Source: Sphaerochaeta sp. Phil3 (lineage in GTDB: Bacteria > Spirochaetota > Spirochaetia > Sphaerochaetales > Sphaerochaetaceae). Taken from it: a stretch of DNA of 64,000 bases. The stretch covers positions 1 to 64,000 of the forward strand of contig MSGT01000027.1 of NCBI GenBank assembly GCA_001940825.1, in the 5' to 3' direction. Position numbers and translations under genes: made by a program. Positions 17,978 through 47,642 of this stretch are shown here, piece by piece. Position 1 is the first letter of the stretch; the number at the start of each line of letters is the position of its first letter. The notes below the pieces were generated by a model. It made no database searches and had not been told where the DNA came from. It saw nothing but the letters and a program-made list of their open reading frames with translations.

Positions 17978-20361
17978 TTGTTAGCCCAGCTTACAATAGC
18001 GCCTGCACCTTGCAGTGCATTGTCCTTTGAACCGCCTACGAACATCACAGGAACGGACATGACACCATACTGCGCTGCAAGATCGGCATTTTCCTGAGCA
18101 TCCACGACCTTGTAGGCTATGCCCTTTCTATCAAGTGCAGCCTTCGCCGTAGGGCAGTTTGGACAGGTCTTCGTCGTAAAGAGAAGGTTCTCTGAAGAAC
18201 AGGAACACACAGGGGCATCGGTCTTGGAATTGCCCTTTTCATTCTGCGAATCGTGCGTGGCAGGCCCGTTCACCTTGGCACGCGATGCCTCGTCGAAGTC
18301 ATACGTCTCCCTTTCCTTGAACTCCTGGGCCTTTCCTGTGTTCCAGTTCTGGACAGGTCTGTAGTAGCCGGTGATTCTGGAATAGACCTCGGTTGGCTTG
18401 CCGCATTTTGGGCATGTGTAGTGCTCGCCGGTGATGTATCCATGCTCCTTGCACACGGAGTATGTTGGGCTTATCGTGAAGTACGGAAGCTTGTAGTTGG
18501 ATGCAATCTTTCTGACAAGCGATGCCACTGCCTCCCAGCTTGTAGGCTGCTCGCCAAGGAATACATGGAAGACCGTTCCGCTTGTGTACTTGGTCTGAAG
18601 CTCGTCCTGGATATCCATGGCCTTGAAGAGGTCGTGCGTGAAGCCAACAGGGAGGTTTGAGGAGTTGGTGTAGTATGGAGACTCCTGCGTACCTGCCGTG
18701 ATGATGTTTGGATAGCGCTTCTTGTCATGGATTGCAAGTCTGTATGAGGTGCTCTCTGCAGGTGTGGCCTCAAGGTTGTAGAGGTCGCCGTACATCTCCT
18801 GATAGTCGGAAAGCCTCTCCCTCATGTGGTCAAGCACCTGGGAGGTGAAACGCTGACCCCTTTCGTCCGTGAGATCGCAGCGCAGCCAATTTGCATTGAG
18901 GCAGGCTTCGTTCATGCCCACAAGACCAATGGTACTGAAATGATTGTTGAACGTTCCAAGATATCTCTTCGTATACGGATAGAGTCCGTTTTCAAGGAAT
19001 TTGGAAATAGTATTCCTCTTGACCTTGAGCGAGCGGGCTGCAATGTCCATGAGCTTGTCCAGCCTGTCATAGAAGTCCTTCTCGTCCTTTGCAAGGTATG
19101 CAAGACGTGGCATGTTGAGAGTCACGACACCAACCGATCCTGTGGACTCTCCGCTTCCAAAGAAACCGCCGCTCTTCTTCCTAAGCTCTCTGAGGTCCAA
19201 TCTAAGGCGGCAGCACATGCTTCTTACATCGCTTGGCTGCATCTCAGTGTTGCCAATGTAGTTGGAGAAATAGGGAGTTCCATACTTCATCGTCATGGAG
19301 AAGAGAAGCTCGTTGTTTGGATTGTCGGACCAGTCGAAGTCCTTGGTAAGTGAATACGTAGGAATAGGATACTGGAAACCGCGTCCGTTTGCGTCGCCTT
19401 CGAGCATGACCTCGAGGAACGCCTTGTTGACCATATCCATCTCCTTTTGGCAGTCGCCGTAGGTGAAGTCCATGTCCTCGCCTCCAACGATTGCAGGAAG
19501 ATCCTTGAGATCTGGTGGAACGGTCCAGTCAAGCGTTATGTTCGAGAACGGAGCCTGCGTACCCCAACGGGACGGCGTGTTGACGCCAAAGACGAAGCTG
19601 CTCACACACTGCTTGACCTCCCTGTAGCTGAGGTTCTCGGCCTTCACAAACGCAGAAAGGTATGTGTCGAACGAGCTGAACGCCTGCGCGCCGGCCCATT
19701 CGTTCTGCATGATTCCAATGAAGTTGACCATTTGGTTGCATAGTGTGTTCAAGTGTCTTGCAGGACGGGACGAAATCTTGCCCTCCACCCCGCCAAGGCC
19801 TTCCTTGATGAGCTGTTTGAGGCTCCACCCAGCACAATAGCCCGATAGCATTGAAAGGTCGTGAAGATGAAGGTCCGCATTCCTGTGCGCCGCACCTATC
19901 TCCTCGTCATAGATCTGAGAAAGCCAGTAGTTCGCGGTTATGGCTCCGCTGTTGGAGAGGATGAGACCGCCTATGCTGTAGTTGACGGTGCTGTTCTCCT
20001 TGACGCGCCAGTCATCGGCCTTGAGATAGCCGTCAACGGTCTTCTTGTAGTCTATCATGTTCTGCTCGGCGTTTCTGACGTTCTCATGCTGCTTGCGGTA
20101 GAGGATGTAGCTCTTTGCAACGTCGCTGTAGCCGCAAAGGGCAAGCGTGGTCTCCACGCTGTCCTGAATGGCCTCGACCCCAATCTCGCCGTCCTTGACC
20201 TTAGAGCCAAAGTCAGCTGCAGCCCTGAGGGCCAAGAGCCCCACTATTTGTCTGTTGGTTTCCTTTCCTGTGGCCTCGAAGGCTCTGGAAATCGCATTCT
20301 CAATCCTAGAAAGTTCGAAATCGACCTTAGATCCATTCCTTTTGACTACGGTGTTTATCAT
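17971..20361 (-). CDS. nrdD: Anaerobic ribonucleotide reductase with fused redoxin
   Basis: This protein of about 796 residues makes deoxyribonucleotides without oxygen. An N-terminal ATP-cone (TVVKRNGSKVDFELSRIENA) controls activity. The large catalytic barrel follows, then a zinc site with Cys and the CPKCG pair, then the glycyl-radical loop RITGYYRPV. About 80 extra residues at the end form a thioredoxin/glutaredoxin-like domain with the active site TCPNC and the cis-proline VPVM. Some NrdD subtypes take electrons from a thioredoxin or glutaredoxin rather than formate, and a built-in redoxin suits that. The ATG was chosen because GGAGGG lies just before it; the frame stays open a further 27 codons upstream. 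A near-consensus NrdR box sits 90 bases upstream. Confidence 0.9.
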   Translation of the reverse strand: MINTVVKRNGSKVDFELSRIENAISRAFEATGKETNRQIVGLLALRAAADFGSKVKDGEIGVEAIQDSVETTLALCGYSDVAKSYILYRKQHENVRNAEQNMIDYKKTVDGYLKADDWRVKENSTVNYSIGGLILSNSGAITANYWLSQIYDEEIGAAHRNADLHLHDLSMLSGYCAGWSLKQLIKEGLGGVEGKISSRPARHLNTLCNQMVNFIGIMQNEWAGAQAFSSFDTYLSAFVKAENLSYREVKQCVSSFVFGVNTPSRWGTQAPFSNITLDWTVPPDLKDLPAIVGGEDMDFTYGDCQKEMDMVNKAFLEVMLEGDANGRGFQYPIPTYSLTKDFDWSDNPNNELLFSMTMKYGTPYFSNYIGNTEMQPSDVRSMCCRLRLDLRELRKKSGGFFGSGESTGSVGVVTLNMPRLAYLAKDEKDFYDRLDKLMDIAARSLKVKRNTISKFLENGLYPYTKRYLGTFNNHFSTIGLVGMNEACLNANWLRCDLTDERGQRFTSQVLDHMRERLSDYQEMYGDLYNLEATPAESTSYRLAIHDKKRYPNIITAGTQESPYYTNSSNLPVGFTHDLFKAMDIQDELQTKYTSGTVFHVFLGEQPTSWEAVASLVRKIASNYKLPYFTISPTYSVCKEHGYITGEHYTCPKCGKPTEVYSRITGYYRPVQNWNTGKAQEFKERETYDFDEASRAKVNGPATHDSQNEKGNSKTDAPVCSCSSENLLFTTKTCPNCPTAKAALDRKGIAYKVVDAQENADLAAQYGVMSVPVMFVGGSKDNALQGAGAIVSWANKC

Positions 20362-32032: not shown

Positions 32033-32070
32033 GATCTTACGCTTAAGTATGCGAAGTGCTCTCTTTGATG

Positions 32071-32180
32071 CGTCCTGATGCGCCTTCATACGCCTTGGTA
32101 CGCCCTAGTCCGCCGTAGTCCGCCCTCATACGCCTTACTACGCCCCACTACGCCAACTTGCGCCAACATATGCCCACATA
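32071..32180 (+). repeat. Phased 10-nt repeat array
   Basis: Eleven units of exactly 10 bases, mostly CGCC followed by six variable bases that often end in TA or TG, such as cgccttcata, cgccttggta and cgccttacta. A 10-base period is about one turn of DNA, so the CGCC blocks would all face the same side of the helix. It lies downstream of the sugar operon and before a membrane-protein gene, in an otherwise empty 240-base gap. No palindrome or T run accompanies it. Confidence 0.8.
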
Positions 32181-32273
32181 AATCATCAACACCAACTTTT
32201 CCTTGTGCCACCCCGACTCCAAGTGTTATTCTAATAACAGAATCTTATAGAACCATCAGAGGTCATTCAAAAA

Positions 32274-33732: not shown

Positions 33733-33749
33733 ACGAGACGAAGGATTCA

Positions 33750-33860
33750 ACAACCGCAACAGACACGACAGATGCTACAATTGGGACAAACGCTACAATC
33801 CCTACACTTGCTACAAGTGCGACACTTGCCACAGACGCTACAGAACGGCTACAGATTGCT
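33750..33860 (-). repeat. 9-nt array left of HUH-enzyme gene
   Basis: On the plus strand, eleven units begin ACA; on the minus strand they read TGT plus six variable bases, most often TGTAGC. Ten units keep a strict 9-base spacing; the one nearest the gene is 11 bases. The array runs right up to the stop codon of the HUH-enzyme gene (33859-33861). Two units, tgtagcatc and tgtagcaag, are identical to units in the array on the other side. Read outward from the gene, both arrays begin with a similar 11-base unit (tgtagccgttc here, tgtaggcgatt there). Confidence 0.8.
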
Positions 33861-34548
33861 AGCTTATCCAAGGCACAGAGACATCTGCCTTGAAGAGCCT
33901 GTCGTTGTCGGCTTTGGTCCAGTCCTTGAAGCGGGCCTTTGCGGCATTGTATACGGCCTTGTAGTCGTTGTCGCGGTAAAAGACGCACAGCTCCTTCTCC
34001 GTCATGCCAAATAGAAGAGGATAGATATCTTTGTCGTATGGTTTGCACTCGATACCCCTTTCCAAGAACCAGAAACAGTCGTAGGGAACAAATTCGCCCT
34101 TGTCCAATACGCTTCTGACGTTGTCGTAGTCGTACTTGCCAACGGTGGTGAGTTCGACTATATCCTTTATCACTCTGTAATGGGGGCTCGACTCGAACAC
34201 GGTCCTACCGTTTCTGTACTTCGTTGGAGATTTCTTCCTGACCCTGTGTGATACAGCGGTGTTGACGAGCCTCAACGCATCCACGATATCCCTCCATTTC
34301 TCTGCAACGAGTACATCATGTGTGTGATTGCTCATGGTGACGGAGAAGATTATCTTTATGTTGCGCTGCGAACATATCCTACACAGCATATTGTGCCTGT
34401 ATTGCCCAAGCTCCTTGTCAAAGATGAACTCCTTGTTCGACACCCGTTGGGTTGCATGGTAGAAACGTCCGTTCCTATCTATACTTCCCTTTCGGAGCAT
34501 ACATTCCTCATTGTCCTTTGAACCGATTATTTCACTGAAACTGACCAT
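33859..34548 (-). CDS. Y1 HUH transposase, RAYT-like
   Basis: This 229-residue protein resembles IS200-like Y1 transposases and especially REP-associated tyrosine transposases. The start RFYHATQRVSNKEFIFD matches the usual opening, the metal-binding HUH motif is MSNHTHDVL, and a candidate catalytic tyrosine lies in ELTTVGKYDYDNVRSV. The C-terminal part is unlike standard members. Such enzymes cut and join single-stranded DNA; RAYTs act on short dispersed repeats rather than on their own ends. Here the gene is framed by two inverted 9-nt arrays. GGAGG lies before the ATG. There is no IS200/IS605 tnpB or hairpin end next to it. Confidence 0.75.
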   Translation of the reverse strand: MVSFSEIIGSKDNEECMLRKGSIDRNGRFYHATQRVSNKEFIFDKELGQYRHNMLCRICSQRNIKIIFSVTMSNHTHDVLVAEKWRDIVDALRLVNTAVSHRVRKKSPTKYRNGRTVFESSPHYRVIKDIVELTTVGKYDYDNVRSVLDKGEFVPYDCFWFLERGIECKPYDKDIYPLLFGMTEKELCVFYRDNDYKAVYNAAKARFKDWTKADNDRLFKADVSVPWIS

Positions 34549-34599
34549 AGTTTCCTCCTATTAGATTAATACGAGAAACCTGTCACTTTCATTCACGGT

Positions 34600-34718
34600 T
34601 GTAGGCGATTTGTCGCAGTTGTAGAGGTTGTAGCATCTGTAACGCCTGTAGCATCTGTCGCAGTTGTAACGTCTGTACCACCTGTAGAGGTTGTAGCAAG
34701 TGTTGAACTTGTAATTAC
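34600..34718 (+). repeat. 9-nt array right of HUH-enzyme gene
   Basis: An 11-base unit (34600-34610) and twelve 9-base units (34611-34718), all starting TGT, with TGTAG in half of them, read away from the gene on the plus strand. Exact duplicates inside the array are tgtagcatc, tgtcgcagt and tgtagaggt (two each). It begins 52 bases upstream of the HUH-enzyme start and mirrors the array on the far side. A minus-strand frame across it would encode a Tyr/Arg/Cys-rich repeat peptide and is not believable as a gene. Confidence 0.82.
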
Positions 34719-47282: not shown

Positions 47283-47396
47283 GAAGCAAAAGTCAAAAAA
47301 GGCAGATGCGTACAGGAACACCGTCAAGTGTTATGTTGGTATATGAGTCGTCATAAACCCTAAGTTTACAAAAGAACGGATAATCGCTGCTATACC

Positions 47397-47441
47397 TTCT
47401 GAACCATTGGAACCCTTGTGACCACTGGAACCATCGCTACG
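47397..47441 (+). repeat. 9-nt repeat tract ending in ACC
   Basis: Five 9-base units, four of them ending ACC (ttctgaacc, attggaacc, cttgtgacc, actggaacc), then atcgctacg. Spacing is strict while sequence varies. Located in the non-coding space after the HEPN gene. Confidence 0.5.
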
Positions 47442-47606
47442 GATCGCCTACGGATCGGACGCAACCCATGACGGCATATTGGATCTGCAAGCATTATCGT
47501 AACCCCTTTCGCTTCCCTTCCCAAACGGTCTTATGGCTTGGATGCCCCCTTTCAATCCCAATCTCTCATCCCCGCGCTTTTCGCAAAGAACCGAATTAAA
47601 GCGCAT

Positions 47607-47642
47607 TAGTAGGTGTAGTGGGTGTAGTGAGTGTAGTGAGCA
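47607..47642 (+). repeat. 9-nt repeat tract TAGTRRGTG
   Basis: Four units (tagtaggtg, tagtgggtg, tagtgagtg, tagtgagca) with 9-base spacing. Shifted by two bases each holds TGTAG, the core of the arrays beside the HUH-enzyme gene. Confidence 0.65.

Follow-up and report, generated by a model that had tools for sequence, protein, structure and literature searches.

A RAYT-like Y1/HUH gene flanked by inverted arrays of short direct repeats in Sphaerochaeta

The window analyzed here, a stretch of 64,000 nt of Sphaerochaeta sp. Phil3 DNA, contains a Y1/HUH gene that is bracketed by two arrays of short direct repeats, while other arrays stand in the window without a gene. The features are as follows.

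32061-32185, plus strand: solo array without a gene, 10-nt units (TNNTNCGCCN)
33744-33857, minus strand: downstream arm, AATC followed by the 11-mer tgtagccgttc and 11 nine-mers, reading outward from the gene (from the sequence)
33859-34548, minus strand: Y1/HUH (RAYT-like) gene, 229 aa (from Pfam, alignment, AF2 model and fold match)
34549-34599, minus strand: leader with a ribosome-binding site and a promoter-like block gtgaatgaaagtgacaggtttctcgtatta (from sequence comparison)
34600-34718, plus strand: upstream arm, the 11-mer tgtaggcgatt followed by 12 nine-mers TGTNNNNNN, reading outward from the gene (from the sequence)
47390-47460, plus strand: solo array of another family, GAACCATTG units
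47600-47640, plus strand: short solo array, GTGTAGTGG units

A preliminary description of this DNA had reported two arrays of TGT-started 9-mers that read outward from a Y1-type gene, each beginning with an 11-base unit. Both arrays were located, at 34600-34718 and 33744-33853, with this orientation and a gene-side 11-mer in each. The 11-mer of the upstream arm occupies 34600-34610 on the plus strand, and that of the downstream arm occupies 33843-33853, from which the nine-mers run on the minus strand to 33744. The reported contact of one array with the stop codon also holds, the downstream tag ending 1-2 nt from this codon (33859-33861), as does the occurrence of GTAG in about half of the units. 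Arrays were assessed by a Dirichlet-multinomial column score, with thresholds set by us and with shuffles and other Y1 loci as controls. The two window arrays scored 50.4 and 45.8, far above the shuffle maxima of 7.6 and 9.4 (30 shuffles each).

The encoded protein contains the motif MSNHTHDVL, as had been described, and is matched by PF01797 (Y1_Tnp) of Pfam with an E-value of 4.9e-7. Its HUH motif is H75-T-H77, with a predicted catalytic Tyr139 and with Asn143; H75, H77, Y139 and N143 are invariant across 24 homologs, at identities down to ~18-25%. Pfam assigns PF01797 to 20 of the 24 clade members and detects no HTH family in them. The class 2 Y motif (Y---NP) has its proline in only some of the members (YDYDNV in the window protein, YLYENP in the L003 protein). 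For the AlphaFold2 model of the window protein (mean pLDDT 92), the closest solved fold is E. coli TnpA_REP on a REP hairpin (4er8; Z 12.6, 144 residues, 3.2 A), and IS608 TnpA and ISDra2 TnpA rank next. The conserved residues and the predicted fold are those of TnpA_REP/IS200 Y1 enzymes. Against the NCBIfam equivalog for REP_Tyr_transpos (NF047646), the protein reached 24.1 bits with a cut-off of 80, and because it lies far under this cut-off we regard it as a divergent relative of RAYTs.

A promoter-like block of the form GTGAATGGAAA-N5-GGTTTCTTGTATAT lies upstream of Y1 genes and of one unrelated lipoprotein gene (L088), where it follows an array. This block is probably a general promoter type of the lineage, and the leader at 34549-34599 is probably a host promoter located outside the element. 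The conserved leader (GAATGGAAA...TTTCTTGTATAT) was also considered as a site of the enzyme and rejected, as it likewise precedes the L088 gene and distant Y1 genes without paired arms.

The source genome (2.36 Mb, 72 contigs) and the other assemblies are draft MAGs, and the genome-wide counts given here come from pattern searches and from sampled stretches totaling ~400 kb. The named relatives are MAGs assigned to Spirochaetales/Sphaerochaetaceae, most of them of rumen and gut origin. Six paralogs occur in the source genome, 35-63% identical to the window protein, and every one of them lies between inverted arrays. The unit is particular to the paralog, with a length of 9 nt in five of them and of 10 nt in one (L006). 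The units are of the TGTAG type in the window, the CATGGG type in L002, the TCTAG type in L003 and the GCCC type in L004 and L005. In congeneric genomes, nearly all close homologs have inverted arrays with other units. A scarcity of arrays beside homologs had been named beforehand as evidence against a connection with the gene; homologs do carry them. The preliminary description in fact understated the case: the pattern is common to all paralogs, solo arrays are dispersed, and other families have no GTAG. GTAG as the recognition key is not supported, because GTAG sits in the unit of the window family only and is absent from the other unit consensuses; as a common key it was rejected. Two homologs, L012 and L023, have no proper arm pair near the gene. 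More distant Y1 genes, which share 21-22% identity with the window protein, possess a mutually inverted pair of 8-nt arrays, both upstream of the gene and not bracketing it:

1052-1137 and 1304-1406 of L014/L064 (G001): 8-nt array pair of a distant Y1 gene
1123-1411 of L022 (G003): 8-nt array pair of a distant Y1 gene

Paired arms were counted where each side of the gene had, no farther than 450 nt away, an array with a score exceeding 15, the two having the same period and an inverted similarity above 2. Such arms were found at 17 of the 25 clade loci and at 0 of 30 further Y1_Tnp loci from the phylum, among which is L224, an IS200-type TnpA gene of the source genome. In every one of the 14 elements with two 9-nt arms, the best match of the upstream arm was its own downstream arm; the mean similarity was +7.0 for the own arm, -2.6 for arms of other elements and -3.0 for the wrong orientation (permutation p 1e-5, 14 elements). 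That the arrays belong to the enzyme, as first suggested for the window locus, is upheld by these inverted arms with their paralog-specific unit and by their distribution over the Y1_Tnp loci. The same two results, 17 of 25 against 0 of 30 and the own-arm match in 14 of 14, tell against the reading that the arrays are independent selfish or slippage-prone DNA, unconnected with the enzyme and beside Y1 genes by chance. Although arrays do occur alone and, within the sampled sequence, some array families have no cognate gene, we consider this reading very unlikely. Unit similarity showed no correlation with protein similarity, orthologs excepted, and co-variation therefore gives no support for recognition of the unit by the enzyme.

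The period itself could be a coding relic, as the preliminary description had cautioned, or chance repetition. Nine is a multiple of three, and the downstream array of L016 and L017 is translated as a C-terminal repeat tail. However, arrays with 10-nt units (L006 and solo copies) and 8-nt units (L014, L022) exist, most arrays lie outside ORFs, and the scores are far above those of shuffles. Given the 8- and 10-nt families and the mostly non-coding location, the period is not a coding relic, and we attach next to no probability to this explanation.

Copies of the arrays are also dispersed without a gene. In the L002 family, the gene-side end is GCGCACGGATTNCGCACGGATT, composed of two 11-mers. 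This pattern has 17 matches in the genome, 16 of them with an array on the same side (the two arms of the L002 gene and 14 solo copies), and its reversed control has 0. In the window family, runs of TGTNGNNNN occur at about 19-20 places, of which two are the gene arms and about 17-18 are solo copies; almost all solo copies begin with AATC-TGT[AG]GC[CG][AC]ATC before the 9-mers, and their far end is irregular. The dispersed copies accordingly are constant at their gene-side end and contain differing numbers of units. In ten congeneric genomes, neither family was found beyond background. Two genomes with the gene contain 5.0 and 5.4 non-coding arrays per 100 kb, as against 0.5-1.5 in two gene-less genomes of the family (400 kb), where they are mostly AT-rich low-complexity runs; equal abundance of arrays where the gene is lacking, which had been raised as a possible objection, was not seen. 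No relatives were found in plasmids, phages or viral contigs.

The solo arrays of the window have counterparts elsewhere. The array at 32061-32185 is clearly the same repeat as those at L037:10808 and L035:16375. The L037:10808 array resembles the arms of the sixth paralog, L006, and direct comparison of the window array with these arms gave scores that barely exceed those of shuffles. The array at 47390-47460 is, as read by eye, near-identical to L030:16189-16280, and no gene was found for this dispersed family. At the latter site, the block of this type (tctgaaccattggaacccttg..ggatcgcctacggatcggacgcaac) adjoins a window-family solo array. The short array at 47600-47640 resembles L037:14465-14530, again as read by eye.

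Solo arrays of different families were found fused to one another. Eight loci have a block in common in which a family H array is followed by a window-family array, the outside sequence being unrelated, and in about six of these eight the family H array has an inverted partner across a spacer of ~30 nt. At L191, L197, L201 and L203, solo arrays run on into an L002-family array. These mosaic blocks resemble the BIME and REPIN organization of palindromic REPs. No gene belonging to family H or family Y turned up in the sampled sequence.

Comparison of close species revealed turnover within the arrays. In orthologous elements of two close species (G005/G007; L016/L017; L008/L010 and L021), the genes and flanks are near-identical and the arrays differ in the number, order and content of their units; no change is seen in the innermost units or at the outer junction to the neighboring gene. 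The translated tail of the L016 and L017 proteins, a Gln-Thr-His/Pro repeat, differs in length between the species. A solo array of G007 (L130:2005-2085) lies in-frame within the linker of a SpoU-type rRNA methylase and lengthens it, nine congeneric homologs having a shorter, unrelated linker; because the linker itself is variable, the exact insertion target is blurred. Between valS and a zf-HC2 anti-sigma-like gene (L133:9353-10585, G007), the sequence appears to vary from species to species, with solo arrays in G007 and Y1 genes of different types near the same flanks in G001, G003 and G006. Owing to this variability, the G007 solo locus beside valS offered no clean precise empty site, and the window locus offered none because no usable rubrerythrin ortholog exists among the congeners. 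Across the genomes compared, no transposition event or precise empty site was caught.

These copies bear on a reading in which the arrays are iteron-like operators, namely rows of double-stranded DNA sites for the Y1 protein or a host protein that serve in autoregulation or DNA bridging, with the dispersed copies being regulatory or architectural. A period of 8-10 nt is close to a helical turn, direct repeats that are not palindromic would suit a row of bound proteins, and the arrays adjoin the start and stop of the gene. Yet each paralog has a different unit, and inverted arms on both sides together with dispersed, mosaic and even in-frame copies in an unrelated gene make the arrays look mobile rather than regulatory; an operator is thus an unlikely explanation. 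Alternatively, the locus could be a transposon with long TIRs (a TIRtron) that moves as a unit, the TIRs having degenerated into arrays by slippage so that only the gene-side end matters. TIRYT genes with TIR families are known (PMC3733652), conservation is highest at the gene-side end (16 copies of GCGCACGGATTNCGCACGGATT), and gene-less inverted arm pairs with a short spacer occur. On the other hand, most solo copies are a single arm of a given family. Moreover, the 9-nt register and the unit consensus are kept despite unit turnover and arrays persist in all families, which suggests that the repetition is used. We judge this reading to be about as improbable as the operator.

Single-strand structure was compared with shuffles. 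For the window arms, folding did not surpass that of shuffles (z -0.9 to +0.6), and the remaining arms examined (z -2.5 to +0.2) have no hairpin in common; hairpins inside the arms were rejected as a general feature, since there is no general excess over shuffles. Duplexes between an arm and its own partner, in contrast, amount to -33 to -91 kcal/mol, as against means of about -8 to -28 with the arms of other elements. Shuffling the unit order hardly alters arm-arm pairing in the window element, so its arms can pair in many registers. Co-linear pairing kept by unit order was also considered; it is absent for the window element, and a slight excess was seen in L004-L007, L016 and L017. Because unit order is irrelevant in most elements, arm pairing may be a by-product of the common unit.

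At the level of sequence, the system comprises paralog-specific inverted arms, dispersed gene-less copies, a fixed end, mosaics and unit turnover. We think it rather probable that this is an array-based REPtron, in which the gene of a RAYT-type Y1/HUH single-stranded DNA nuclease/transposase lies between inverted copies of its own non-coding element. The element would consist of one or two 10-11-nt units that form the fixed gene-side end, followed by a variable run of degenerate 9-nt units, or of 10-nt units in the case of one paralog. The enzyme would act on single-stranded DNA by recognizing its own unit there, perhaps once the two arms have annealed, a step that we propose because single arms barely fold and yet anneal strongly to their partners. 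Nicking would take place at the fixed gene-side end or close to it, and arrays would be moved or copied in trans, as is thought for TnpA_REP with REPs. Unit number could be altered by slippage, by unequal exchange, or by nicking and rejoining between units. The window family has a CT dinucleotide at AATC|TGT, which not all families have; TnpA_REP cleaves at C|T (PMC8266576), with which this dinucleotide would be consistent. More tentatively, and at somewhat less than even chances, this HUH clade may have swapped the hairpin for a phased direct-repeat array, the recognized feature being either the sequence and phase of the units or a duplex between the arms in any register, and the pairing of each enzyme with its own unit may have led to a fast-evolving, BIME-like repeat landscape.

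REPtrons are RAYT/TnpA_REP genes with REP, BIME and REPIN elements in E. coli, Pseudomonas and Stenotrophomonas (PMC6006769, PMC8266576, PMC3116915). The spirochaete system is similar in that the gene of a Y1/HUH enzyme of the same fold (4er8 being the top match) has inverted copies of a dispersed repeat family of its own on either side, with several gene-repeat pairs per genome, gene-less dispersed copies, two-arm copies, mosaics and an occasional in-frame copy inside a gene. It differs in that the element is a 9/10-nt direct-repeat array with a fixed end, whereas a REP is a palindrome with a GTAG foot; in addition, an arm by itself has little hairpin structure, the number of units varies, and the window protein is far under the REP_Tyr_transpos cut-off. 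The GT[AG]G foot is absent from all unit consensuses other than that of the window family, and since the system lacks both of the defining REP features tested, the hairpin and this foot, we do not file it as a REPtron member.

TIRtrons with TIRYT genes (Di Nocera 2013, PMC3733652) largely correspond to TnpA_Y1 subclass 2.1 of PMC6006769, and many of their long TIRs have a GGGGWSAS motif or self-complementary tracts (PMC3733652). They share with the present system RAYT-like genes between terminal inverted repeats, some TIR families being dispersed, as dimers or clusters. Subclass 2.1 is marked by GGGGWSAS and a C-terminal HTH domain; the unit consensuses of the present system are without GGGGWSAS, and Pfam detected no HTH family in the proteins. 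In the searched passages of PMC6006769 and PMC3733652, no mention is made of short-period tandem arrays next to genes of this type, or of Spirochaetes as hosts of TIRtrons. IS200/IS605 elements (IS608, ISDra2) have the Y1/HUH core and catalytic Tyr in common with the window protein; unlike them, the window arms have no subterminal hairpin, and the genome has no near-identical copies, the paralogs having diverged to the identities given above. In Beggiatoaceae, intergenic sets of the short direct repeat TAACTGA occur upstream of start codons (PMC4679880). These sets are also dispersed intergenic rows of short direct repeats, but that repeat is 7 nt long, near-exact and placed before start codons, and the words transposase and IS200 are absent from PMC4679880. 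We found no description of arrays of this kind with Y1 genes in the open-licence literature. To judge from the sequences, the system is one that would work like a REPtron or TIRtron, with a RAYT-like gene amid inverted copies of its own dispersed repeat, and it is best read as a mobile system akin to REPtrons and TIRtrons, with a direct-repeat array taking the place of the palindrome as its element.

The known single-strand transposases (IS200/IS605, TnpA_REP) recognize hairpins. The range of HUH recognition would be widened if a related clade is tied to paralog-specific direct-repeat arrays, with at least six enzyme-array pairs within one genome. If so, the puzzling short intergenic tandem arrays of gut spirochaetes would be products of RAYT-like enzymes, which bears on the origin of REP families, and the system would represent a new substrate class of Y1 transposases and a new route to short tandem arrays in bacterial genomes. 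It would come near to being categorically new only if repetition itself is the recognition feature.

Repeats of other kinds were also observed. A separate dispersed non-coding repeat of ~300-650 bp (GATTGTCAATCAGCTGTGTGTTACCTGTGCG...) is present at L133:9823-10480 and L130:17350-17500; G005 has many copies of it, and it also has matches in G009. Long repeat units (ccaaggatggccccgttcgacgggatttgaggcgaggacaaggaggaagaacagcgacag) lie beside solo arrays in intergenic positions of contig C26, at L037:14565-14745 and 18790-18919.
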